A stretch of 64,000 bases of DNA from Candidatus Dormiibacterota bacterium (GCA_035544955.1 DASZZN010000009.1:1-64000), one strand, 5' to 3'. Shown: positions 5,721 to 62,922, counted from the stretch's first letter. Made by a program: numbers and translations. The notes: generated by a model not told the origin, from the sequence alone.

Positions 5721-6704
5721 TCAGGCCGCGGCCCTGACGGGCGCGCCTTCCCATTTGATGACGCAAGCACCCCAGGTCAGCCCGGAGCCGAACCCGACGA
5801 GGACGAGATGATCACCGGTTTTCAGGCGGCCAGCGGCCAGCGCGTCTTTGAGGGCGAGCGGAATCGAGGCCGTCGAGGTGTTGCCGTAATTGGCGATCTC
5901 GTTGACCATCACGTCGGCGCCCACACCCAACCGCTTGCCGGCCGCCTCGATGATGCGGGCGTTAGCTTGATGCGGAACGATCAGTTTGACGTCCTCCAGC
6001 GAAACGTTGGCCTTCTCTAGCGCCTCGAGTGTCGCCGAGGCCAGGATCTCGGTGGCGAAGCGGAACACTTTGCGACCGTCCATGCGGATCTCCGGACGGC
6101 CGCGGCCTTCCGGGCCGTCGGCGCCGGGTGCGACATAGATCAGGTCGCCGCCCGAGCCGTCCGATCCGAGCACGCAGGACTTGATGCCGGCGCCGTTCGA
6201 GCTCGGCCCCAACACCACCGCACCGGCGCCGTCACCGAAGACGACGCACGTGCCGCGGTCCTTGAAGTTGATGATCTTGGTGAGCGTCTCGCTGCCGATC
6301 ACGATGGCTTGCTTCGACTCGCCCCCACTGACGAATCGGTCGGCAATGCTCATCCCGTAAAGGAAACCGGTACACGCCGCCTGGACATCGAACGCCGGGC
6401 CGTGGGCGCCCAGTCGCTCCTGCACACGTGATGCGACCGAGGGAAACATCGAGTCCGGCGTGGACGTGCTGCACACGATGAGGTCGGTGTCCTCCGGGCG
6501 CAACCCGGCTGCGGTCAGCGCGTCCCTGGCGGCATTAGCGGCCAGGTCGGTCGCGGTCTCGTCGACCGCGGCGATGTGCCGCTCGTGGATACCGGTCCGT
6601 TCGCGGATCCAGGTGTCGGACGTCTCGACCATCTTCTCGAGGTCGGCGTTGGTCAGGATGCCGGACGGAACATAGCTGCCGACCGACTTGATGCTGGTAA
6701 GCAT
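5721..6704 (-). CDS. fabH: Beta-ketoacyl-ACP synthase III
   Basis: 327-residue KAS III that condenses acetyl- or branched acyl-CoA with malonyl-ACP to start fatty-acid chains. The triad is visible: Cys in AACTGF (near 110), His in VPHQANARI (near 244) and Asn in NYGNTST (near 273). The ATG is preceded by GGGGAG at good spacing. First gene of the fabH-accD-accA run. A second, more divergent thiolase-fold gene at 53.5 kb is OleA-like and clearly distinct from this one. Confidence 0.95.
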   Translation of the reverse strand: MLTSIKSVGSYVPSGILTNADLEKMVETSDTWIRERTGIHERHIAAVDETATDLAANAARDALTAAGLRPEDTDLIVCSTSTPDSMFPSVASRVQERLGAHGPAFDVQAACTGFLYGMSIADRFVSGGESKQAIVIGSETLTKIINFKDRGTCVVFGDGAGAVVLGPSSNGAGIKSCVLGSDGSGGDLIYVAPGADGPEGRGRPEIRMDGRKVFRFATEILASATLEALEKANVSLEDVKLIVPHQANARIIEAAGKRLGVGADVMVNEIANYGNTSTASIPLALKDALAAGRLKTGDHLVLVGFGSGLTWGACVIKWEGAPVRAAA

Positions 6705-46603: not shown

Positions 46604-47767
46604 ATGCCTCAACTCCGCGAAAAGGCACGTGCCCAGTTACCAGACAGCGCCTTCGCTTATATCGATTCCCGCGGGATCCGGCGTCTGCCCATCAACGACG
46701 AGGCCCACGTCCGCAACGCGCTCGCGCGCTTCAACCAGGTCCGCTTCGAGGACGAAACGGCGAGAGATCGGGCGCGAACGAGGCTGCTGAAAGCCGCCAA
46801 GAAGTACGGCATCGTGCCGGTCGGCTTCATGACCGGCCAGTTGCGTGCGCAGAGCCTGCAGGCGGCGGCGGGGAAGGCCGTCATCGAGCTCGGCGGCCTT
46901 GGGACGGCGGAGCAGCTGGAAGCGCGGCTGCGCACCGTGCTAGGCGATCCGACGCTTTCGGTGCTCTACTGGTCCGATTCGGTCGCCGCCTACCTCGATG
47001 GTGAAGGTCAGGCTGTAGCGCTTCCGGGCGAGGGGGCTGATCGCGCCGTGACCCTACTCCAGCGTCAGGGCAAGCCCATGACCGCCCTGGTCCACGCGCG
47101 CTCGGTGCTCAGCGATCCGGACCTGGCCCGAACCGTCACAGCCGCCGTAACGCTGGCCATCGAAAACCAATGGATGAACAGCGAAATCCAGGCTCGCGCC
47201 ACGGAGGTGCGCACGCTGCCGACCGGCGTCGTGACCTTTCTTTTCACCGACATCGAGGACTCGAGCGGTCTCGTCCGACGTCTTGGCGACCGGTATGACC
47301 GGTTCCTCGCCGATGTGCGACGCCTCCTGCGCGCGGCGATCCGCGAGAGCGGTGGCCGCGAGGTCGAGACCCGCGCTGATGAAATGTTCGCCGTTTTTGA
47401 GCGGGCCGCCTCTGGCCTCGAGGCGGCCCTCACGATCCAGCGCAAGGTTCGCGCTCGCGCCTGGCCGGATGGTCTTCCGGTACAAATTCGCATCGGCCTG
47501 CACACCGGTCGGCCAACCCTGACCGATACGGGCTACATCGGCCTGGCCGTCCACACCGCGTCCCGAATCTGCTTTGCAAGCCATGGCGGCCAGATCCTTC
47601 TGTCAGGCGCGGTTCGGGAGGCGGTTGCGGGGTCTGAGCCGGTGGGGGTTGGCTTCAGGGACCTCGGTCTGCATCAGTTTCATGGGTTGCCGGCGCCCGA
47701 GGCTCTTTTCCAGGTCGAGGCCGCGGACCTGCCGGCCAAATTCCCGCCGCCGAGAACGTTCGGCTAA
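46604..47767 (+). CDS. DUF6582 domain-sensor-class III nucleotide cyclase fusion
   Basis: 387 residues in three parts. 1-70: DUF6582-like (LPDSAFAYIDSRGIRRLPIN, HVRNALARFNQVRFED). 85-200: a segment like the sensor region preceding actinobacterial histidine kinases (LRTVLGDPTLSVLYW ... ALVHARSVLSDPDLARTV). 208-375: class III cyclase homology domain with metal Asp in FTDIEDSSGL, RADEMFAVF and IRIGLHTG. The transition-state Asn of the VNxxxR motif is His here (AVHTASRI), so catalysis is doubtful. Ends interlocked with the convergent SDR gene. Confidence 0.75.
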   Translation: MPQLREKARAQLPDSAFAYIDSRGIRRLPINDEAHVRNALARFNQVRFEDETARDRARTRLLKAAKKYGIVPVGFMTGQLRAQSLQAAAGKAVIELGGLGTAEQLEARLRTVLGDPTLSVLYWSDSVAAYLDGEGQAVALPGEGADRAVTLLQRQGKPMTALVHARSVLSDPDLARTVTAAVTLAIENQWMNSEIQARATEVRTLPTGVVTFLFTDIEDSSGLVRRLGDRYDRFLADVRRLLRAAIRESGGREVETRADEMFAVFERAASGLEAALTIQRKVRARAWPDGLPVQIRIGLHTGRPTLTDTGYIGLAVHTASRICFASHGGQILLSGAVREAVAGSEPVGVGFRDLGLHQFHGLPAPEALFQVEAADLPAKFPPPRTFG

Positions 47768-48735
47768 GGACCTGGGGCGGCCTGGGCGGCCACCGCCACC
47801 TCGCGGAACGCATCACGGTAACCGCGCTGCGGCTGGTAGCCGAGCATCGTGCGGGCCCGGCGGGTATCGAGCACGCAATCGGAGGCGAGTTGCGAGACAA
47901 CGTAGCGGGTGAGGAGCGGAGGGCGACTCGCCCGAACCGTTAGAAAGACTGACTCCATGGCCGACGCGATGGGCCATGCCGCACGTCGTGGCAGATAAAA
48001 GATGTCGGGCGGAAGCCCGAAGGCGACCAGCAGCGAGCTGAGCAGCACGCCAAGCGGTTCCGCTTCCGAATCCGCGACGTTGTAGACTCCCGCAGGCGAT
48101 CGCGGCAAGAGCGCGAGCTCGATCGCATGGACCAGGTTGTCGATATGCGTGAGCGACATACGGTTGCGACCGTCACCGACCGCGAGGAGGTGGCCGAAGC
48201 GTCGCGCAGCCAGCAGCCGGGGTAACAGCTTGGTCTCGCCCGGGCCATAGATGGCATGCGGTCGAAGAATGATCGCCTGGCGTCCACTGCGCAGCACAGC
48301 GTGCTCCGCCGCAACCTTCGTCCGCACATACGCGTTGAGTGGTCGGCGGGCGTAGGCCGCGGTCTCATCGATTGGCTCGGCTGGACGTCTGTGGTCGTAC
48401 ACGCTCGAGGTGCTGAGGTGCACGAAACGCGCCTCAGCAGTGAAGCTCGCGAGCACCGCCTCGGTTCCTCGGGCGTTGACCGCGTCGAACTCGGTCGTTG
48501 GCCCCCAATCGGTCACCGTGCCGGCACAATGCACGACGGCATCGATCGGCCGCAACGCTAGCGCCGGCCTGGGGCCCTCCGCGATGTTCCACTGGGTGTA
48601 CTCGGCCAGCTCGCCATGGCGAAATGCCTCGCGTGGCCTGCGGCCGAAGGCCAGCACGTGGTGACCACCTCTGGCAAGGGACTCCACGACCCGGCCGCCC
48701 ACAAACCCGGTGGCGCCGGTAACAGCGATCAGCAA
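47764..48735 (-). CDS. OleD-like NAD(P)-dependent dehydrogenase (3-beta-HSD-type SDR)
   Basis: 323-residue extended SDR: Rossmann motif TGATGFVGG near 7-15, active site STSSVYD and YVRTK (Tyr near 135). Segments such as LRPHAIYGPGETKLLPRL and VGDGRNRMSLTHIDNL, the C-terminal RPPLLTRYVVSQLASD and LGYQPQRGYRDAF align well with OleD, which reduces 2-alkyl-3-ketoacids to beta-hydroxy acids. It overlaps the stop-start of the ligase gene by seven bases and ends the P450-ligase-SDR operon. Confidence 0.82.
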   Translation of the reverse strand: MLIAVTGATGFVGGRVVESLARGGHHVLAFGRRPREAFRHGELAEYTQWNIAEGPRPALALRPIDAVVHCAGTVTDWGPTTEFDAVNARGTEAVLASFTAEARFVHLSTSSVYDHRRPAEPIDETAAYARRPLNAYVRTKVAAEHAVLRSGRQAIILRPHAIYGPGETKLLPRLLAARRFGHLLAVGDGRNRMSLTHIDNLVHAIELALLPRSPAGVYNVADSEAEPLGVLLSSLLVAFGLPPDIFYLPRRAAWPIASAMESVFLTVRASRPPLLTRYVVSQLASDCVLDTRRARTMLGYQPQRGYRDAFREVAVAAQAAPGP

Positions 48736-50294
48736 GGCGGCGTGCTGCCAACGAAGAAGGGTAGGCGGCCCAGGGCGGCGAGGACCGCCGTGCGGTCAAC
48801 CTTTCTCGACCGGACCGAGAGAGGGATCGGCATCACAATGATGCGGTCGGGCAGGGCGGCCGCATCGATTCGATGCGGTCCCTGGCGAAGCTCAAGCCTA
48901 ACGCGGGCGGTCAGCGCCGACTCATCGACTCCCGGATCGGGCTCGATGCAGAGGACGACCTCTTCATCGGCCCGTTGATCCTGATATAGCCCGACGAGGC
49001 AGCAGCGACGGACACCGGCAATCCCCGCGATCGTCGACTCGAAGAGCTCTGGATAGATGTTCTCCTGGCCTCGGATGATCATGGCCTTCTTTCGCCCGAG
49101 CAGGATGACCCGGCTGCTCGCGTCCAGCGAGCCAAAATCGCCCGTCCGGACCTCGGTGATCGGCTCATCACCCCAGTAGCCGGCGCACACGTTAGGTCCA
49201 CGGACAATCAGCTCACCGTCGGCCGCGGTCCTGACGTGGACGCCTGCGACCGGTGCACCGACCAGGTCTCCATCGGCGTGGAAAGCGAGTTTCGCGTCGA
49301 GATCGACGAGGCAGACGGGGATCACCTCTGTCATGCCGTAGACGCATGTCACCTTCGTGCTCAGCGGGAGCACCGGGACGAGACGGCGGAGGAACGTGGT
49401 GGGTACGGCCGCGGAGCCCAATAACACCTTGCGCAGTGAATCGGGGAGTCTAAGCCGGTGAGACACGGCGTACTCGACCAGCTCCTGGTACTCACTCGGA
49501 ACCCCGAAGGTATGGGTGACGCGATAGCGACGGAGGTGATCGAGCAGGCGAGGGGCACGAAATCGGCCGCGCGGAATAACGGTGGGTACGCCGGCGAGCA
49601 GGGCCGGCAGTATGAGGTGTAGCTGGTCGCTGTAGAGGACGTCGCCTGACGCAAAGCGCGCCTCTCGTGACATGATCTCGAGCGCCGCCCCAATCGAGGC
49701 GTTGGTGTGCACGACAGCCCGTGGCGCCGCGGTTGTCCCCGAGGTGAAGACGATGACCACCGGGTCATGAGCTTCTCGTGGGACGACAGGATCGATGGAT
49801 CGGCCCGCGCGGACCAGCGAGCGGATACCGATCATGTGCGGCCGGCCCCACATGGGCGGCCCAACCCGCACGAAGCGCCTCGCGGGAACGGCGCCGAGGT
49901 CGGGCAGCACGGGGAGGCGGCGGAGTAACAAAGGGCCGCGGTGCCGGCCGAGCAGGTACACGAGGGAGGTGGCCATCACCCAGCTCGGCTCCATCAAGCG
50001 GATGCGGCTGGCAAAGACCTCGGGGCCCATCAGCGGGTTGGCGGCGATGACGACGCCACCGGCGCGCACGATCGCCAGGATGAGGACAATCGAGTCGATG
50101 CCAGGGGGCACCGTGAACAGCACGCGGTCGCCCGGACGCATGCCCTCGGCCAGCAACCCGCTGGCAACCCTTCCGATTCGCCGATGGAGCTCCGAAAACG
50201 TGAGTCGCCGTCCGCTTGTCTCGCGCAGCGCGAGCGCGTCCGGGCGCTCGATCGATTGTCGCTCGAGCTCATTGAGCACGTCGAGGGCGGTCAT
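48729..50294 (-). CDS. OleC-like AMP-dependent ligase (possible beta-lactone synthetase)
   Basis: 521-residue ANL-superfamily enzyme with P-loop FTSGTTAAPRAVVHT near 180, VYGMTEVIPV and GRKKAMIIRGQENIYP, and a Lys (SRKVDR) near the C-terminus. Gene context next to OleA- and OleD-like genes and the YGMTEVIPV adenylate region suggest an OleC-type role, which cyclises beta-hydroxy acids to beta-lactones with ATP. A fatty-acyl-AMP/CoA ligase role cannot be excluded. GTG/ATG start overlaps the P450 stop (ATGA). Confidence 0.78.
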   Translation of the reverse strand: MTALDVLNELERQSIERPDALALRETSGRRLTFSELHRRIGRVASGLLAEGMRPGDRVLFTVPPGIDSIVLILAIVRAGGVVIAANPLMGPEVFASRIRLMEPSWVMATSLVYLLGRHRGPLLLRRLPVLPDLGAVPARRFVRVGPPMWGRPHMIGIRSLVRAGRSIDPVVPREAHDPVVIVFTSGTTAAPRAVVHTNASIGAALEIMSREARFASGDVLYSDQLHLILPALLAGVPTVIPRGRFRAPRLLDHLRRYRVTHTFGVPSEYQELVEYAVSHRLRLPDSLRKVLLGSAAVPTTFLRRLVPVLPLSTKVTCVYGMTEVIPVCLVDLDAKLAFHADGDLVGAPVAGVHVRTAADGELIVRGPNVCAGYWGDEPITEVRTGDFGSLDASSRVILLGRKKAMIIRGQENIYPELFESTIAGIAGVRRCCLVGLYQDQRADEEVVLCIEPDPGVDESALTARVRLELRQGPHRIDAAALPDRIIVMPIPLSVRSRKVDRTAVLAALGRLPFFVGSTPPC

Positions 50295-51526
50295 CGCACG
50301 AGCTCGATTTCCAACAGGGAATACGCCGGGATGAAGACGCGTCGGGCGTAGCGCCGACGCACAACCCGGACAGGCTGGGGAAGCCCGAGCAGACCAGTGA
50401 GTACGGCGCGGAGCTCGCGCTGTGCCAGCGTATACCCGATACAGAAATGCGCGCCGGCGCCAAACCAGAGGTTGCGAACGCGCCGGTCGACGCGACGGTC
50501 GACGTCGAAGCTTCGCGGCCGGGGAAACCAGGCGGGATGCTTCATAAGGTTGTAGGTGTGAATCATCACCCGGCCGCCGTGCCGGAAGCGATGGCCGCGA
50601 ACGATCGTGTCGCGCTCGACGCTGCGAAGCATGATGGGCGTTGGGACCGTCAGTCGAAGGCCTTCATCGATAGCCGGTATCAGCAGCGCGCGATCTTCGC
50701 GAAGGCGCCCCAGTTCGCCACTGTCGATCAGCAGGGCGACCAGCCGCGGCAGGGCGGTCGAGATCGTCTGGGTTCCCGCCAGGAACAGTGACGCCGTGAC
50801 CCCTTTGACCTGTTCAAACGGCAATCCCAGCATGCGAAGCCGCTGGATGAGGGAATCCGACCTGGGGCCGGCGTCGTACGCCGTTCGCATGTAGACGGCT
50901 AACCGCTCGAGCACCAGCTGTCGCTCGCGGACCTGCCGCTCGCTCAACCGCCGGGTCGACAGCCGCAGCACGGAGACCAGTTCCTCGCCGAGTTGCCACA
51001 TGTCGAGGGCGATTCGTTCGTCCGCCGCATCGATCCCCAACATGTGGCACATCAGGCTTCCGGTCAGGACGTGAACGAACCGCACCAGGTCCACGCGCTC
51101 ACCGGCAGCCAGCTCGAGGCGCAGGGCATCCACCGCGGGCTCGAGGACAGCGGCATCGAGCCGATCGAGGTAGGTCCGCGAAAAGAGGTCGGTGAGCTGG
51201 GCTCGCAATTCGTGATGCGGCCCGCCGTGCATGTTGAAGAGCGCGAAAGGACCCATGACCTGCGTGATCACGACCCCCATGCTGCCGGGGCCCGTCTTGC
51301 TGAAGTGCCGCTCGTCCTCGAGGATCTCGCGAGCCAGTTCCGGATCATTGACGATGCTGCCCATCACCGGCAGCCTCACGACCGGTCCCAGGCGCCTCAC
51401 GAGTTCGGAGAAGACCAGTGCCAGCGGGTGGCTCGCGGCGTAGATGCGCAGTTCGTGCCACGCGGCCGCGCGCTGAACCCGGCGCTTGTCACGCGACGCA
51501 GTCCGCGTGGATAATCGGCTATCCAC
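50291..51526 (-). CDS. Cytochrome P450
   Basis: 411-residue bacterial P450. Heme-binding loop LWFGAGAHFCIGYTLAQREL with the thiolate Cys near 361, ExxR pair in DEGLRL near 288, and I-helix LFLAGTQTIS, where the usual acidic residue before the Thr is Gln. GTG 51526 gives the normal length; the open frame beyond it overlaps the MFS gene and is not P450-like. First gene of the operon with the ligase and the OleD-like SDR, so it probably hydroxylates or desaturates the pathway product or its acyl precursor. Confidence 0.85.
   Translation of the reverse strand: MDSRLSTRTASRDKRRVQRAAAWHELRIYAASHPLALVFSELVRRLGPVVRLPVMGSIVNDPELAREILEDERHFSKTGPGSMGVVITQVMGPFALFNMHGGPHHELRAQLTDLFSRTYLDRLDAAVLEPAVDALRLELAAGERVDLVRFVHVLTGSLMCHMLGIDAADERIALDMWQLGEELVSVLRLSTRRLSERQVRERQLVLERLAVYMRTAYDAGPRSDSLIQRLRMLGLPFEQVKGVTASLFLAGTQTISTALPRLVALLIDSGELGRLREDRALLIPAIDEGLRLTVPTPIMLRSVERDTIVRGHRFRHGGRVMIHTYNLMKHPAWFPRPRSFDVDRRVDRRVRNLWFGAGAHFCIGYTLAQRELRAVLTGLLGLPQPVRVVRRRYARRVFIPAYSLLEIELVR
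51486..51515 (+). promoter_or_regulatory. Promoter of MFS-GT2 genes (TTGTCA-18-GATAAT)
   Basis: Both hexamers match five of six positions and are 18 bases apart. The promoter lies inside the first codons of the divergent P450 gene, so transcription of the two arms of the cluster would interfere or be coordinated. Confidence 0.6.
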
Positions 51527-51553
51527 CCCCGAGAGCCCGGAACGCGCCTGATC

Positions 51554-52711
51554 ATGCTGCTCGGGCTGCTCACGTTCACCGACACCTTCGGCTATGCGAT
51601 CGTGCTGCCGGTGCTGCCGTTCGCCGCCCAGCGTATGCATCTCGGCGCGTTGGTCATCGGTGGGGTCTTCGCCACCTATTCGTTCTGCCAGCTGCTGGCC
51701 GCTCCCGTGCTCGGATCGTTGAGCGATCGGTACGGCCGCCGGCCCTTGCTGCTGGTCAGCCAGGCGGGCAGTATTGTCGGATTCATCGTCCTGGCGCTCG
51801 CCAACTCGGCCGGCTGGTTCTACCTCTCGCGGTTGATCGACGGACTGACGGCCGGCAACATCGCGATCATCTGGGCCGCGGTGCTCGATCACTATCCCCG
51901 CTCCGAGTGGGGTCGGCGCTTCGCCAACCTCTCGACGGCGACCGGCATCGGCATCCTGCTGGGGCTGATCGTCAGCTCGTTGCTGGCTCGGTACGGCCTC
52001 GCCCTGGTGGCGGCGGTGGCGATCGCATTGACCGTGATCAACATGGCCGTCACGCTGTTCGCCTTTCCAGCGGCCAACGTTGTCCCTGCCCGAGCGGGAT
52101 GGGGAATCCGGTTGGCGGGTGCCCGCTTTATCGAGCTGGTCACGCGGCCGTCGAACGCGGTAACGCGGCGGGTCGTCTTCGCGGGCCTGCTGTCGACCAT
52201 CGTGCAGAGCGCATTCCTCCTCGCCTTCCCGCTGTTCCTTTTTCGGCTGCTCCATTTCGACGCATCGCAGGCCGCGCTCACCCTCACCGTCTTGTTTGGC
52301 TTCGCCGCGGCGTTCCAGGTCCTGGCGCTGGCGCCGCTCGTGCGCCGGCTGGGTGACCGAGGCGCGGCAATCGCGGGATTTGCCCTGGTCGTCCCGGGGG
52401 CCGTGACGATCGCCATGGTGCGAACGTTTCCGCTAGTGCTGCTTGCCGGCACCATCATCATGTGGGGCATCGTTCTCCTCAACCCATCGCTGACCGCGCT
52501 CCTCGGCCGCGCCAATCGGACGCTGGACGAAGGCGCGATCATGGGCGTCAACCAATCGATCGCGAGCGCCGGCCAGATGCTGGGACCGCTGGCGGGGTAC
52601 GCGGCCCTCGCGCTGGCGTCGACCGCGGGGTACGGCGCGCTGTGCGCGGTCCTGGCCGCCGCGGGTCTTATCATGTCGCTCCAAATCCGGGTGCGTGATG
52701 ACCGCCCCTGA
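51554..52711 (+). CDS. MFS transporter (TetA/drug-exporter type)
   Basis: 385-residue, twelve-helix major facilitator with the A motif GSLSDRYGRRPLLL between helices II and III and GYAIVLPVLPF in helix I, the pattern of drug:H+ antiporters. It diverges from the P450 operon and overlaps the glycosyltransferase gene by 17 bases. In this context it probably exports the cluster's product. Confidence 0.85.
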   Translation: MLLGLLTFTDTFGYAIVLPVLPFAAQRMHLGALVIGGVFATYSFCQLLAAPVLGSLSDRYGRRPLLLVSQAGSIVGFIVLALANSAGWFYLSRLIDGLTAGNIAIIWAAVLDHYPRSEWGRRFANLSTATGIGILLGLIVSSLLARYGLALVAAVAIALTVINMAVTLFAFPAANVVPARAGWGIRLAGARFIELVTRPSNAVTRRVVFAGLLSTIVQSAFLLAFPLFLFRLLHFDASQAALTLTVLFGFAAAFQVLALAPLVRRLGDRGAAIAGFALVVPGAVTIAMVRTFPLVLLAGTIIMWGIVLLNPSLTALLGRANRTLDEGAIMGVNQSIASAGQMLGPLAGYAALALASTAGYGALCAVLAAAGLIMSLQIRVRDDRP

Positions 52712-53459
52712 CTTCTGGGTGGTCGTGCCTTTCTTCAACGAAGCCGGGTGGATCACTGCCACGCTCGAGGCGCTGGCGGCGCAGACCGATCGGGCCTTTA
52801 GCCTGCTGCTTGTCGACAACGGCAGCACGGATGCCGGTCGCGCCGAGATCGAGGCCTTCCGCGGCCGACACCCCGAGATGACGATCGAGGTCATCGCTGA
52901 ACTGGAAAAGGGGACCGGGGCCGCCGCCGACACCGGCTTTCGCTACGCGATCGCGCACGGAGCGCGCTACATTGCGCGCACGGATGCCGATTGTCTCCCG
53001 CGGCGCGACTGGGTCGCGAGCATCAAGCGAGCCTTCGGGGAAGAACTCGAGTTCGTGATCGGCACGATCAAGCCACGGGCGGATGACTTCCCGCTGAGTT
53101 GGGGTGACCGGATTGCGATCCCCGTGCTGATCTTCGTGGCATCGAATTGGGGAAAGATCTACCGTCGGGGCCGGCCCGGCCAGTTCCGGTACGCCTACAT
53201 CATGGTGGCCGGGAACAACCTCGCCATTACCGCATCGATGTACGAACGGGCGGGCGGATTTCCGCGGTCCCGCATCGAGGACGTGCACGAGGACCGTGTC
53301 CTCGGCGACCGCATCAGAATGCTGACGCGGCGTACGCGGAGAAAGCGCAACGTCGTGGTCTACAACTCGACTCGCCGGGCGCGCCGCTACGGCTTCATCA
53401 ATACGTTGCTGTGGTACTGGGAGCATCGCTACCGTCCCCAGGAGATCGACGTGCGATAG
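52695..53459 (+). CDS. Family 2 glycosyltransferase
   Basis: 254-residue GT-A fold enzyme: WVVVPFFNEAGWITATLEAL, LLLVDNGSTDAGR, the metal-binding DADCLPRRDW and an EDVHEDRVLGDR acceptor-side motif. No membrane helices. GTG 52695 or ATG 52698 are both possible starts. Overlap with the MFS gene implies co-translation. It may glycosylate the cluster product or act as a lipid-linked sugar transferase. Confidence 0.85.
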   Translation: MMTAPDFWVVVPFFNEAGWITATLEALAAQTDRAFSLLLVDNGSTDAGRAEIEAFRGRHPEMTIEVIAELEKGTGAAADTGFRYAIAHGARYIARTDADCLPRRDWVASIKRAFGEELEFVIGTIKPRADDFPLSWGDRIAIPVLIFVASNWGKIYRRGRPGQFRYAYIMVAGNNLAITASMYERAGGFPRSRIEDVHEDRVLGDRIRMLTRRTRRKRNVVVYNSTRRARRYGFINTLLWYWEHRYRPQEIDVR

Positions 53460-53470
53460 GGCATCGGCCC

Positions 53471-54499
53471 TCAGTACTCCATCAGCATCACGCCCATGCT
53501 GATGCCGCCCGCCAGCCCGATCCACATCAACCGGTCGCCCCGGTGAATCTCGCCGCGCTCTTCGGCGATCGCGAAGGCGACGGGCAGCGAGGCGGCGCCC
53601 ATGTTGCCGAGCTCCGGCAGGGTGAGGACGATTTTTTCCTGCGGGACACCGCTCATCTCGAGGAACGTTCGGATGAACGGCATCGAGACCTGATGCACCA
53701 GAACCCGCTGATAATCCGCGCAGGCCGTGCCTGTCGCCGCCAGCGCGTCCTGGAGAATGCCCGGGCCCACCTCGAAGAATGCGTCCTTGAGTTGGCTGCC
53801 ATCGCCCTGGATGTAGGTCCATTCATCGCCGCGGGGGTGCATCGATCCGCCGCCCGGAATCACGCCCAGGTCCCAGAAGCGGCTGGCGGTCTGGAAGGAC
53901 CGGTAGTAGATGCCCCGTCCGCTCTCAGAGAGTTGCAGCACGGCCGCGGCTCCGGCATCGCCAAGGGTGTAGCCGGGAAAGCTGAGGCGCAAGTCCCTGC
54001 GGTCGCGGACCGACCACTTGATGCAACGCGACGGCAGCTCTCCGACCGTGACGAGGATTGTCCGATAGGTGCCGTTTTGGATCAGCGCCTCCGCGACCTG
54101 GAGCGCATTGAGGAAGCTGTTGCAGGCGTTCTTCAGGTCGAAAACCGGGCTGTGAGTTCCAAGCTTTTCTTGGACGATGTTGGCGGTCGCCGGTTCCACC
54201 AGGTCCTGGCTGACCGAGGCGTAGATCAGCAGATCGACGTCCGCCGGATCGATGCCAGTTTTGTCGAGGACCCGGCGCCCGGCGGCCGCGGCCAGGTCGG
54301 AGGCGTTGACACCATCGGCCGCGACCCTACGGCAGCGAATGCCCGTCATCAGCTCGACGATTCCGCGTGGCACACGAACCTGCGGGCTCGACGCCGCGAT
54401 GAGGGACTCGACCTCGGCGCTGGAGCGCTGCTGCGGCGGCAGATAGGCGGCAATACCCGTGAGAGCGACGCGCGAGTTCGTCGATATCAGCGTCGCCAC
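53471..54499 (-). CDS. OleA-like thiolase-fold condensing enzyme (KAS III superfamily)
   Basis: 342 residues. Catalytic triad Cys in KNACNSF near 125, His in VHQVSMPF near 267 and Asn in LGNMGAASLP near 298. The segment GIVELMTGIRCRRV and then LLIYASVSQDLVEPATANIV resembles OleA (typical SVxRDYLEPSTA, with the Glu that OleA uses for decarboxylative Claisen condensation) more than FabH. OleA joins two fatty acyl-CoAs head to head. GTG start. Convergent with the MFS-GT2 arm, 11 bases apart. Confidence 0.82.
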   Translation of the reverse strand: MATLISTNSRVALTGIAAYLPPQQRSSAEVESLIAASSPQVRVPRGIVELMTGIRCRRVAADGVNASDLAAAAGRRVLDKTGIDPADVDLLIYASVSQDLVEPATANIVQEKLGTHSPVFDLKNACNSFLNALQVAEALIQNGTYRTILVTVGELPSRCIKWSVRDRRDLRLSFPGYTLGDAGAAAVLQLSESGRGIYYRSFQTASRFWDLGVIPGGGSMHPRGDEWTYIQGDGSQLKDAFFEVGPGILQDALAATGTACADYQRVLVHQVSMPFIRTFLEMSGVPQEKIVLTLPELGNMGAASLPVAFAIAEERGEIHRGDRLMWIGLAGGISMGVMLMEY

Positions 54500-61107: not shown

Positions 61108-62922
61108 ATGAGCGCGGCCGTTCGTGCGCCGGAGCCTGCCGCGACGCCTGGCGAGCTGCCCGAAACCGTGCCGGCACTGTTCCAGCGCACCGCGCAGCGT
61201 CGGGGCGACGCGCCCGCCCTCCACTTCAAGACGGGGCAGCGTTGGACGCCGATCAGTTGGACCGACTACCGCCGGGCCGTGAACCGGATGTCCAATGCCC
61301 TGCTCGCCGAGGGGCTGAATCCCCAGGACCGGGTGGCGCTGTGGTCCTCGAACCGGCCGGAATGGCAGATCGCCGACATCGGGATCGCGCACGCCGGGCT
61401 GGTGACCGTCGCCATCTACCAGTCCGATTCCGCGGAACAGGTCAAGTACTTGTTGAATCACTCTGAGTCGAAGGTTCTGATCGTCGAGCATCGGAAACTG
61501 CTCGACCAGGTCATTGCGCTGCGGGGCGAACTGCCGGGATTGCAGCGGGTGATCCTCGTCGAGGGCGATGCGCCGGAGGGGGAGGGCTGGGTCGTGACCT
61601 GGGAGCAGGCGCTGCGGCGGGGTGATGATTTCGGCCGCGGCCGACCGGGGCTGTTTTCCAGCCGCTGGCAGGCGGTTAGGCCCGAGGACACCGCCAGCCT
61701 GATCTACACTTCGGGCACCACGGGTCTTCCGAAAGCCGCAATCCTGACGCACCGCAATCTCACCTGGACCGCGGTCGCGACGTTGCAATGCTTCCGCGGC
61801 GACCCCAACGACCGAGTCGTTTCCTATCTGCCGCTGGCGCACGTGCTCGAGCGCGTGGTCAGCGAACTTCGCCAGCTCTGCACCGGTTGCGAGGTGTACT
61901 TCTGCCCGAGCATCGACCAGGTGATGGCGGTCGTCGCGGAAGTCCATCCCACGTACTTCACGTCGGTGCCAAGGCTTTGGGAAAAGATCTACGCGGGAAT
62001 TCGGGCCAAGATGGAGAAGGTCACCGGCCCTCGCCGCATGCTCCGCGACTGGGCGCTGCTGACGGGCGCGCTGCGCACCGCGGCGTATGAGCAGCACAAG
62101 CCAATGGCCCCCTGGGCGCGGTGGCAGTGGTCGCTGGCCGACAAGCTCGTCTTCTCAAAAATCCGCGAGACATTGGGCTTCGACAAGATCGAGGTCTGCA
62201 TCAGCGGCTCGGCTGCCGTCTCACCCGACATGCTCCGTTTCTTCTACGGCCTCGGCATCGAGATCCTGGAGGGCTATGGGCTCACCGAGACCACCGCGCC
62301 GGCGACGTTCAACCGACCCGGCGACGCGCGATTCGGCACGGTCGGGCTGCCGTTGCCCGGGGTCGAGATCCGCATCGCCGACGACGGCGAGATCCTGGTC
62401 AAGGGCAACAACGTCTTCGAAGGGTATTTCAAGGATCCGAAGACGACCAAGGAGACGCTGGTGGATGGTTGGCTGAAAACCGGCGATATCGGCGAGCTTG
62501 ACAGAGACGGCTTTCTGAAGATCACCGACCGCAAGAAGGACTTGTTCAAGACCTCCGGTGGAAAGTATGTCGCGCCAGGCGCGATGGAGACCCAGCTCAG
62601 AAGTCGGAGGGGCATTGCCCAGGCGGTAGTGCTTGGCGATCGCCGCCCCTTCGTGGCGGCGTTGTTCACCCTCGACCGCGACGCTCCCGAAGCCATAGGT
62701 GGTCCCAACGATCCCGTCGCGCAGCGGCTCGTCGATGAGGCGGTCCAGAGTGTCAACCGGGGCCTATCGCACCCGGAGCAGATCAAGAAGTGGCGCATCC
62801 TCGACGGCGACTTCCTGGTCGGCGATGAACTCACGCCCAGCATGAAGGTCAAGCGCAAGCGGATCGCCGAGAAGTACGGCGCCGAGATCGAAGCGATCTA
62901 CGCGGAGAAGAAGACCGCCTGA
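61108..62922 (+). CDS. Long-chain acyl-CoA synthetase (AMP-dependent)
   Basis: 604-residue FadD15/FAA-type ligase that activates long-chain fatty acids. Motifs: YTSGTTGLPKAAILTH near 195, a GYGLTETTAPATF adenylate motif near 390, and DRKKDLFKTSGGKYVAPGAM near 475. The C-terminal catalytic Lys is in TPSMKVKRKRI. A leaderless start follows the -10 box. It could feed acyl-CoA to lipid synthesis and to the OleA-like enzyme. Confidence 0.92.
   Translation: MSAAVRAPEPAATPGELPETVPALFQRTAQRRGDAPALHFKTGQRWTPISWTDYRRAVNRMSNALLAEGLNPQDRVALWSSNRPEWQIADIGIAHAGLVTVAIYQSDSAEQVKYLLNHSESKVLIVEHRKLLDQVIALRGELPGLQRVILVEGDAPEGEGWVVTWEQALRRGDDFGRGRPGLFSSRWQAVRPEDTASLIYTSGTTGLPKAAILTHRNLTWTAVATLQCFRGDPNDRVVSYLPLAHVLERVVSELRQLCTGCEVYFCPSIDQVMAVVAEVHPTYFTSVPRLWEKIYAGIRAKMEKVTGPRRMLRDWALLTGALRTAAYEQHKPMAPWARWQWSLADKLVFSKIRETLGFDKIEVCISGSAAVSPDMLRFFYGLGIEILEGYGLTETTAPATFNRPGDARFGTVGLPLPGVEIRIADDGEILVKGNNVFEGYFKDPKTTKETLVDGWLKTGDIGELDRDGFLKITDRKKDLFKTSGGKYVAPGAMETQLRSRRGIAQAVVLGDRRPFVAALFTLDRDAPEAIGGPNDPVAQRLVDEAVQSVNRGLSHPEQIKKWRILDGDFLVGDELTPSMKVKRKRIAEKYGAEIEAIYAEKKTA

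Follow-up and report, generated by a model that had tools for sequence, protein, structure and literature searches.

Known clusters and the locus of this study

Beta-lactones are reactive enzyme inhibitors that are used as drugs. The lipstatin pathway involves a non-ribosomal peptide synthetase and a formyltransferase. The clusters for lipstatin (lst) and nocardiolactone (nlt) contain oleACD without oleB, and they make beta-lactones (PMC7064751). A cluster of the order OleA-glycosyltransferase-OleC-P450-OleD was described from Actinoplanes atraurantiacus, the genome of which has no oleB, and a hydroxylated, glycosylated beta-lactone was predicted as its product (Smith, Robinson, Molomjamts and Wackett, mBio 2020; PMC7064751). 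No later work on this gene combination was found in a literature search. Here a related cluster of six genes was analysed, at positions 47764-54499 of a 64,000-nt stretch of DNA from a Candidatus Dormiibacterota bacterium. The whole stretch is called the window, and all coordinates are positions in it unless another locus is named. The six open reading frames (ORFs) were confirmed at the positions and on the strands given by an earlier, model-made reading of the sequence (the original prediction):

47764-48735, minus strand: OleD-like extended short-chain dehydrogenase/reductase (SDR), 323 aa, with TGxxGFxGG and YxxxK motifs; best NCBIfam model NF042422
48729-50294, minus strand: OleC-like AMP-forming ligase, predicted beta-lactone synthetase, 521 aa; best NCBIfam model PRK09274
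50291-51526, minus strand: cytochrome P450, about 411 aa from GTG 51526; PF00067, 1.1e-20
51554-52711, plus strand: major facilitator superfamily (MFS) efflux transporter, Tet(A)-like, 385 aa; PF07690, 4e-36
52695-53459, plus strand: family 2 glycosyltransferase (GT2), 254 aa, with a DxD motif (ARTDADC); PF00535, 4.7e-19
53471-54499, minus strand: OleA-like condensing enzyme of the thiolase superfamily, 342 aa, with predicted Glu102, Cys126, His269 and Asn299

With a probability of about 55%, as judged from sequence comparisons, these genes may form an oleACD-without-oleB biosynthetic and export cassette, in which the OleC-like ligase would close a beta-lactone on a condensed, reduced, hydroxylated and glycosylated lipid and the MFS protein would export it. 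The gene combination itself is already published; the original prediction had regarded it as possibly new, whereas Smith et al. 2020 (PMC7064751) reported the same genes and the same inference. The window cluster is a wider-spread member of the kind described in 2020 in an actinobacterium, and what is added to that description is the MFS gene, the spread over three phyla, an inversion and the placement of the ligase.

The homology with the A. atraurantiacus cluster was judged from the matching gene order and content, since OleA, a glycosyltransferase, OleC, P450 and OleD stand together in both. Two Actinomycetota loci (L141 and L142), which carry homologs of the window genes, have exactly the A. 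atraurantiacus order (OleA-GT2-OleC-P450-OleD); whereas the window has an MFS exporter, the P450 gene before OleC and an inverted MFS-GT2 pair. The oleABCD olefin pathway of Xanthomonas, Shewanella and the Chloroflexota (family f15) resembles the window in its Glu-bearing condensing enzyme, in the ligase and SDR superfamilies and presumably in the first steps. However, the window has no OleB, shows about 27-31% identity to the OleA, OleC and OleD of family f15, has different ligase motifs, and carries P450, GT2 and MFS genes in addition. The lipstatin and nocardiolactone clusters share the oleACD-like logic without oleB and a secreted lipid beta-lactone (PMC7064751), the kind of product predicted here. 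Compared by description, the lipstatin pathway has an LstA/LstB heterodimer (PMC7064751), whereas the window has one OleA-like protein, a GT2 and a P450. The OleA-OleC-OleD trios of the Bacteroidota (L055, L056, L057, L059, L068, L069 and L077) contain a closely related condensing enzyme and a sister ligase lineage; but no homolog of the window GT2, P450 or MFS was found beside them.

Organization and conservation of the cluster

Of 298 Gemmatimonadota genomes, 7 have an OleA ortholog (51-61% identity), and no further match there passed the threshold. Orthologs of 44-45% identity were found in 2 of 397 Actinomycetota genomes; a third Actinomycetota match, G415, is one of the Streptomyces relatives and lacks the ligase. 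In a draw of 400 Chloroflexota genomes, orthologs above 50% identity were present only in the window's genome, a congener, G100 and G313. Five Gemmatimonadota loci (L050, L136, L138, L139 and L140) have the order OleA-GT2-P450-OleC-OleD on one strand. The loci L051, L052 and L137 are truncated by contig edges, and their genomes carry the ligase on a different contig. The Chloroflexota genome G100 (L084) has P450-OleA-MFS-GT2-P450-OleC-OleD in a single 8-kb run; G313 has only MFS-OleA-OleD, and no ligase or GT2 ortholog was found in the G313 genome. P450 and GT2 are present in every complete cluster. Because three phyla (Gemmatimonadota, Actinomycetota and Chloroflexota) share this set of genes in one place, the cluster is not a chance neighbourhood.

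The window, read on the minus strand, has OleA-[MFS-GT2 inverted]-P450-OleC-OleD, which corresponds to G100 with one inversion and minus the first P450. Its divergent and convergent layout is therefore explained by the inverted MFS-GT2 pair. The predicted tight P450-ligase-SDR operon was borne out, with overlaps of 4 bases (ATGA) between P450 and ligase and 7 bases between ligase and SDR on the minus strand. The P450 ORF was listed as 654 aa from 52255; the realistic start, GTG 51526, gives 411 aa and is probably the one used. The distance from the MFS start to this P450 start is only 27 bp. The MFS and GT2 ORFs overlap on the plus strand (MFS end 52711, GT2 start 52695), and the condensing enzyme is convergent to GT2, with 11 bases between, as had been proposed. 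The divergent MFS-GT2 pair was likewise found, but a dedicated promoter for it was rejected, because a scan of 7.1 kb gave a lone consensus match (51486-51515, 10/12) against 0.6 expected by chance.

The genes flanking the cluster on both sides, which encode an adenylate-cyclase-domain protein, a laminin-G protein, a uracil-DNA glycosylase and a helicase, are outside the set. A recent horizontal insertion was rejected by composition, since the cluster GC (0.66) equals that of the surroundings. In a survey of the genus, the OleA-like gene was found in 2 of 15 genomes, the window's and G011. The G011 gene is a fragment on a 13,237-base contig, with an 81% match and a readable flank unlike the window's. 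From this distribution and the different flank, the cassette is taken to be accessory in the genus. Two other candidates were rejected: a GT2-OleC fusion, suggested by ORFs of 740-745 aa in L141 and L142 but contradicted by the 734-base distance between the starts of the GT2 and ligase matches, which puts them in different frames, and the Streptomyces OleA-like matches (L060 and others) as a cassette, since no ligase ortholog was found in the L060, L064 and L080 genomes.

Condensing enzyme, reductase and ligase

The condensing enzyme matched PRK09258 best among the NCBIfam models (197.7 bits), against 148.3 bits for FabH (TIGR00747). Alignment with the Xanthomonas campestris OleA structures (PDB 3fk5 and 3row) placed its Glu102 at OleA Glu117, and Glu102, Cys126, His269 and Asn299 correspond to the OleA Glu and the Cys-His-Asn triad, which are conserved in all cluster members. 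In an alignment of 55 sequences, the OleA Glu was found in all cluster members, in the Bacteroidota and Streptomyces relatives and in the genuine Chloroflexota OleA, and it was missing from 17 of 17 FabH controls. The phylogenetic tree separated the 29 Glu-bearing rows, including the genuine Chloroflexota OleA, from FabH and two Glu-less synthases (support 100/98.8). Within the Glu-bearing set, the sister relation of the cluster lineage and canonical OleA was weakly supported (63/48). An identity as FabH or an ordinary synthase of type II fatty acid synthesis was rejected, because the Glu is present and the placement is outside the FabH group.

The SDR matched the OleD model NF042422 best (156.7 bits), followed by the Shewanella sister model (127.4 bits); the best model outside OleD was HpnA (72 bits), 85 bits below the OleD score. 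The SDR orthologs are 40-47% identical and adjoin the ligase in the Gemmatimonadota and Chloroflexota loci.

The best NCBIfam model of the ligase was PRK09274 (173 bits), which was also the best model for four other ligases of the sister lineage; the Xanthomonas OleC model NF045786 gave 98.8 bits. The tree split the cluster ligases, the Bacteroidota ligases and genuine OleC from 11 adenylating ligases of the same genome as the window (100/100). The approximately unbiased (AU) test rejected a grouping of the ligase lineage with either of two ordinary ligases (FadD; p 0.0003 and 0.0013). These comparisons support the view that the condensing enzyme, ligase and SDR belong to a sister lineage of the Ole enzymes and are not canonical Ole enzymes. 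The fold by itself does not distinguish OleA from FabH, nor OleC from FadD.

Related genes were also observed outside the cluster. The window contains a second 3-oxoacyl-ACP synthase III (5757-6695, minus strand; PF08541, 119.6 bits), which lacks the Glu, groups with FabH and is the genome's ordinary FabH. Another AMP-binding ligase of the window (61180-62430, plus strand; open frame 795 aa) forms a long branch among the genome's ordinary ligases. The Chloroflexota loci L145 (8189-9214 of that locus) and L150 (13492-14616), of family f8, encode a condensing enzyme without the OleA Glu (GEQAIPDTG) that groups with a FabH-like protein; these loci have genuine OleC and OleD and no recognisable OleB, and they are odd ole loci of another kind. 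Paired OleA-like genes, about 2-3 kb apart and with the Glu and a KNACNGV motif, occur in L062, L064, L065, L075, L079, L082 and other actinobacterial loci. Some of them are accompanied by a P450, and no ligase ortholog was found in the genomes tested; these pairs possibly encode a heterodimeric condensing enzyme of another pathway.

Evidence against a beta-lactone and the alternative products

Several observations weigh against the proposed beta-lactone cassette. All three Ole-like proteins score well below the curated cut-offs: the condensing enzyme on PRK09258 (197.7 against 285 bits; genuine Chloroflexota OleA 451.6), the SDR on NF042422 (156.7 against 580; genuine Chloroflexota OleD 334.8, likewise under the cut-off) and the ligase on PRK09274 (173 against 478; genuine Chloroflexota OleC 588-690) and NF045786 (98.8 against 900; genuine OleC 521-588). 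The genuine Chloroflexota OleC thus clear the PRK09274 cut-off, but not the Xanthomonas-specific one. The A. atraurantiacus OleA hydrolysed p-nitrophenyl esters and showed no condensation of the acyl-CoAs tested (PMC7064751). A single-sequence PDB search ranked two FabH structures (6e-40 and 2e-35) above OleA (2e-30), a result that alone would mislead on the identity of the enzyme. This ranking, and the three separate transcription units of the window's cluster, might suggest unrelated neighbours, namely a FabH-type synthase, an ordinary CoA ligase and a generic SDR. Such a neighbourhood is already refuted by the synteny in three phyla, where the same set has a near-identical order, and both the OleA Glu and the trees of the condensing enzyme and ligase contradict it. 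The condensing enzyme did not prove FabH-like, nor the ligase an ordinary one.

The motifs of the ligase also count against lactone formation. Its A8 region is of the acyl-CoA-ligase type (GRKKxMIIRGxxNIYPEL), versus GRKSQRVxTxxxxLFTEP in genuine OleC; and the C-terminal motif of the genuine Chloroflexota OleC (GRKSxRVxTxxxxxFTEx) is not matched, as the window ligase has GRKKAMIIRGQENIYPEL, like acyl-CoA ligases. Because the tree groups it with OleC but the A8 region is of the acyl-CoA-ligase type, the ligase is best described as a diverged sister of the OleC enzymes rather than as an established OleC. In the main rival, the product would have no lactone ring: the cassette would make a glycosylated 2-alkyl-3-hydroxy fatty acid that resembles a mycolate glycolipid or acts as a surfactant. 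The ligase would then form acyl-CoA or acyl-AMP, either to supply the OleA-like enzyme or to activate the acid before an ester transfer. This reading would fit the KDMII-R-x-NIYP acyl-CoA-ligase motif, which the ligase and its orthologs keep and genuine OleC has lost, as well as scores far under the OleC cut-offs; Smith et al. 2020 (PMC7064751) also name functionalised hydroxy acids as a third end point of the OleA pathways. However, the ligase falls with OleC in the tree, its grouping with ordinary ligases is rejected, and in the loci of the Chloroflexota and Gemmatimonadota its gene is immediately followed by the OleD-like one, just as OleC adjoins OleD in genuine oleABCD loci. This rival is possible, though rather unlikely.

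For an ordinary olefin (hydrocarbon) pathway, OleB would have to be encoded at a different place in the genome. No OleB model was seen in NCBIfam. No OleB match was found in the cluster loci, and among the 23 alpha/beta-hydrolase matches of the window's own genome (about 95% complete), the best was only 33-34% identical to the Chloroflexota OleB. This best match, a haloalkane-dehalogenase-like protein (L092) of the OleB fold family, also speaks against the proposal. It is a caveat to the absence of OleB, because OleB has features in common with haloalkane dehalogenases, according to a title cited in PMC7158056. In contrast, the genuine Chloroflexota loci (L143, L144 and L146) have an alpha/beta hydrolase of 294-301 aa near or adjoining OleC, with 62-81% identity between genomes. 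An OleB elsewhere was provisionally rejected, as the matches found in this genome are just distant haloalkane-dehalogenase-like proteins. Olefins can also be made without a P450, a sugar transferase or an exporter, yet the first two accompany every complete cluster. The olefin pathway is very improbable.

Tailoring and export genes

The heme motif of the P450 (FGAGAHFCIG) is intact, and the orthologs at the same place in the clusters are 39-45% identical. Its I-helix (AGTQT) has no acidic residue of the usual acid-alcohol pair. The acid is missing from the cassette P450s of the window, L050, L051, L084, L136 and L138-L142 (AGTQT, AGTVS, AGTLT, AGALT, AAVAT), and only the L054 P450 retains it (AGIDT). 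The missing acid suggests unusual chemistry, and the P450 accompanies clusters without OleB; it might therefore replace OleB by oxidative decarboxylation or cleavage of an intermediate. But the closest solved P450 structures are ordinary bacterial enzymes (E about 1e-19), none of the matches was recognised as a peroxygenase (CYP152), and the GT2 needs a hydroxyl acceptor that hydroxylation could supply. A replacement of OleB by the P450 is thus highly doubtful. In L084, a second, more distant P450 (1030-2361 of that locus; 34%) heads the G100 operon.

The GT2 has homologs of 41-57% identity beside OleA in the cluster loci of the Gemmatimonadota, Actinomycetota and Chloroflexota. The ARTDADC motif is kept in all cluster loci, and L054 has RTDADC. 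The sugar is not predictable, because the GT2 resembles solved enzymes weakly. The MFS protein gave 115 bits on NF012174, under the cut-off of 475, and the corresponding position in G100 is occupied by a homolog of 40% identity. A Thermoleophilia genome (L054 and L149) has an MFS gene from a different subfamily next to GT2, and G313 (L083) has one next to OleA; an exporter therefore seems to have been recruited on more than one occasion.

Proposed pathway and significance

The beta-lactone cassette would work in six steps. The OleA-like enzyme would first join two fatty acyl thioesters head to head into a 2-alkyl-3-keto acid, which the OleD-like SDR would reduce to a 2-alkyl-3-hydroxy acid; condensation and reduction are the steps with the strongest evidence. 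The P450 might then hydroxylate a chain, the GT2 might add a sugar to a hydroxyl, and the OleC-like ligase might adenylate the carboxylate so that the 3-hydroxyl closes the beta-lactone. Finally, the product would be exported by the MFS protein. The sequences themselves show which genes are present, their catalytic residues, their conserved joint occurrence and the lack of OleB in the loci. All of these reactions are predicted, and so are the order of the third to fifth steps, the sugar, the chain lengths and the ring closure by the ligase. In view of the CoA-ligase-type motifs of the ligase, the closure is judged no more than likely, and lactonisation is about as likely as all the alternatives together.

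The original prediction is partly supported overall. The OleA-, OleC- and OleD-like identities agree with the best NCBIfam models, the Glu column and two trees; the absence of OleB, in the locus and as a close homolog in the genome, and the synteny also stood, but the novelty did not. Tentatively, the clusters of the Chloroflexota, Gemmatimonadota and Actinomycetota might represent a lineage separate from the olefin and known beta-lactone pathways, which would make and export a lipid that bears a sugar. This lipid would be a glycosylated beta-lactone or else a glycosylated 2-alkyl-3-hydroxy acid of a mycolate-like kind, and the P450, which lacks the I-helix acid, would do unusual chemistry.

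Only one published prediction was found for this combination, and its basis is a single actinobacterium, in which condensation of acyl-CoAs by OleA could not be demonstrated. A conserved cassette in three phyla, with proteins that may behave better, makes that prediction testable, and the spread indicates that the pathway is no actinobacterial oddity.

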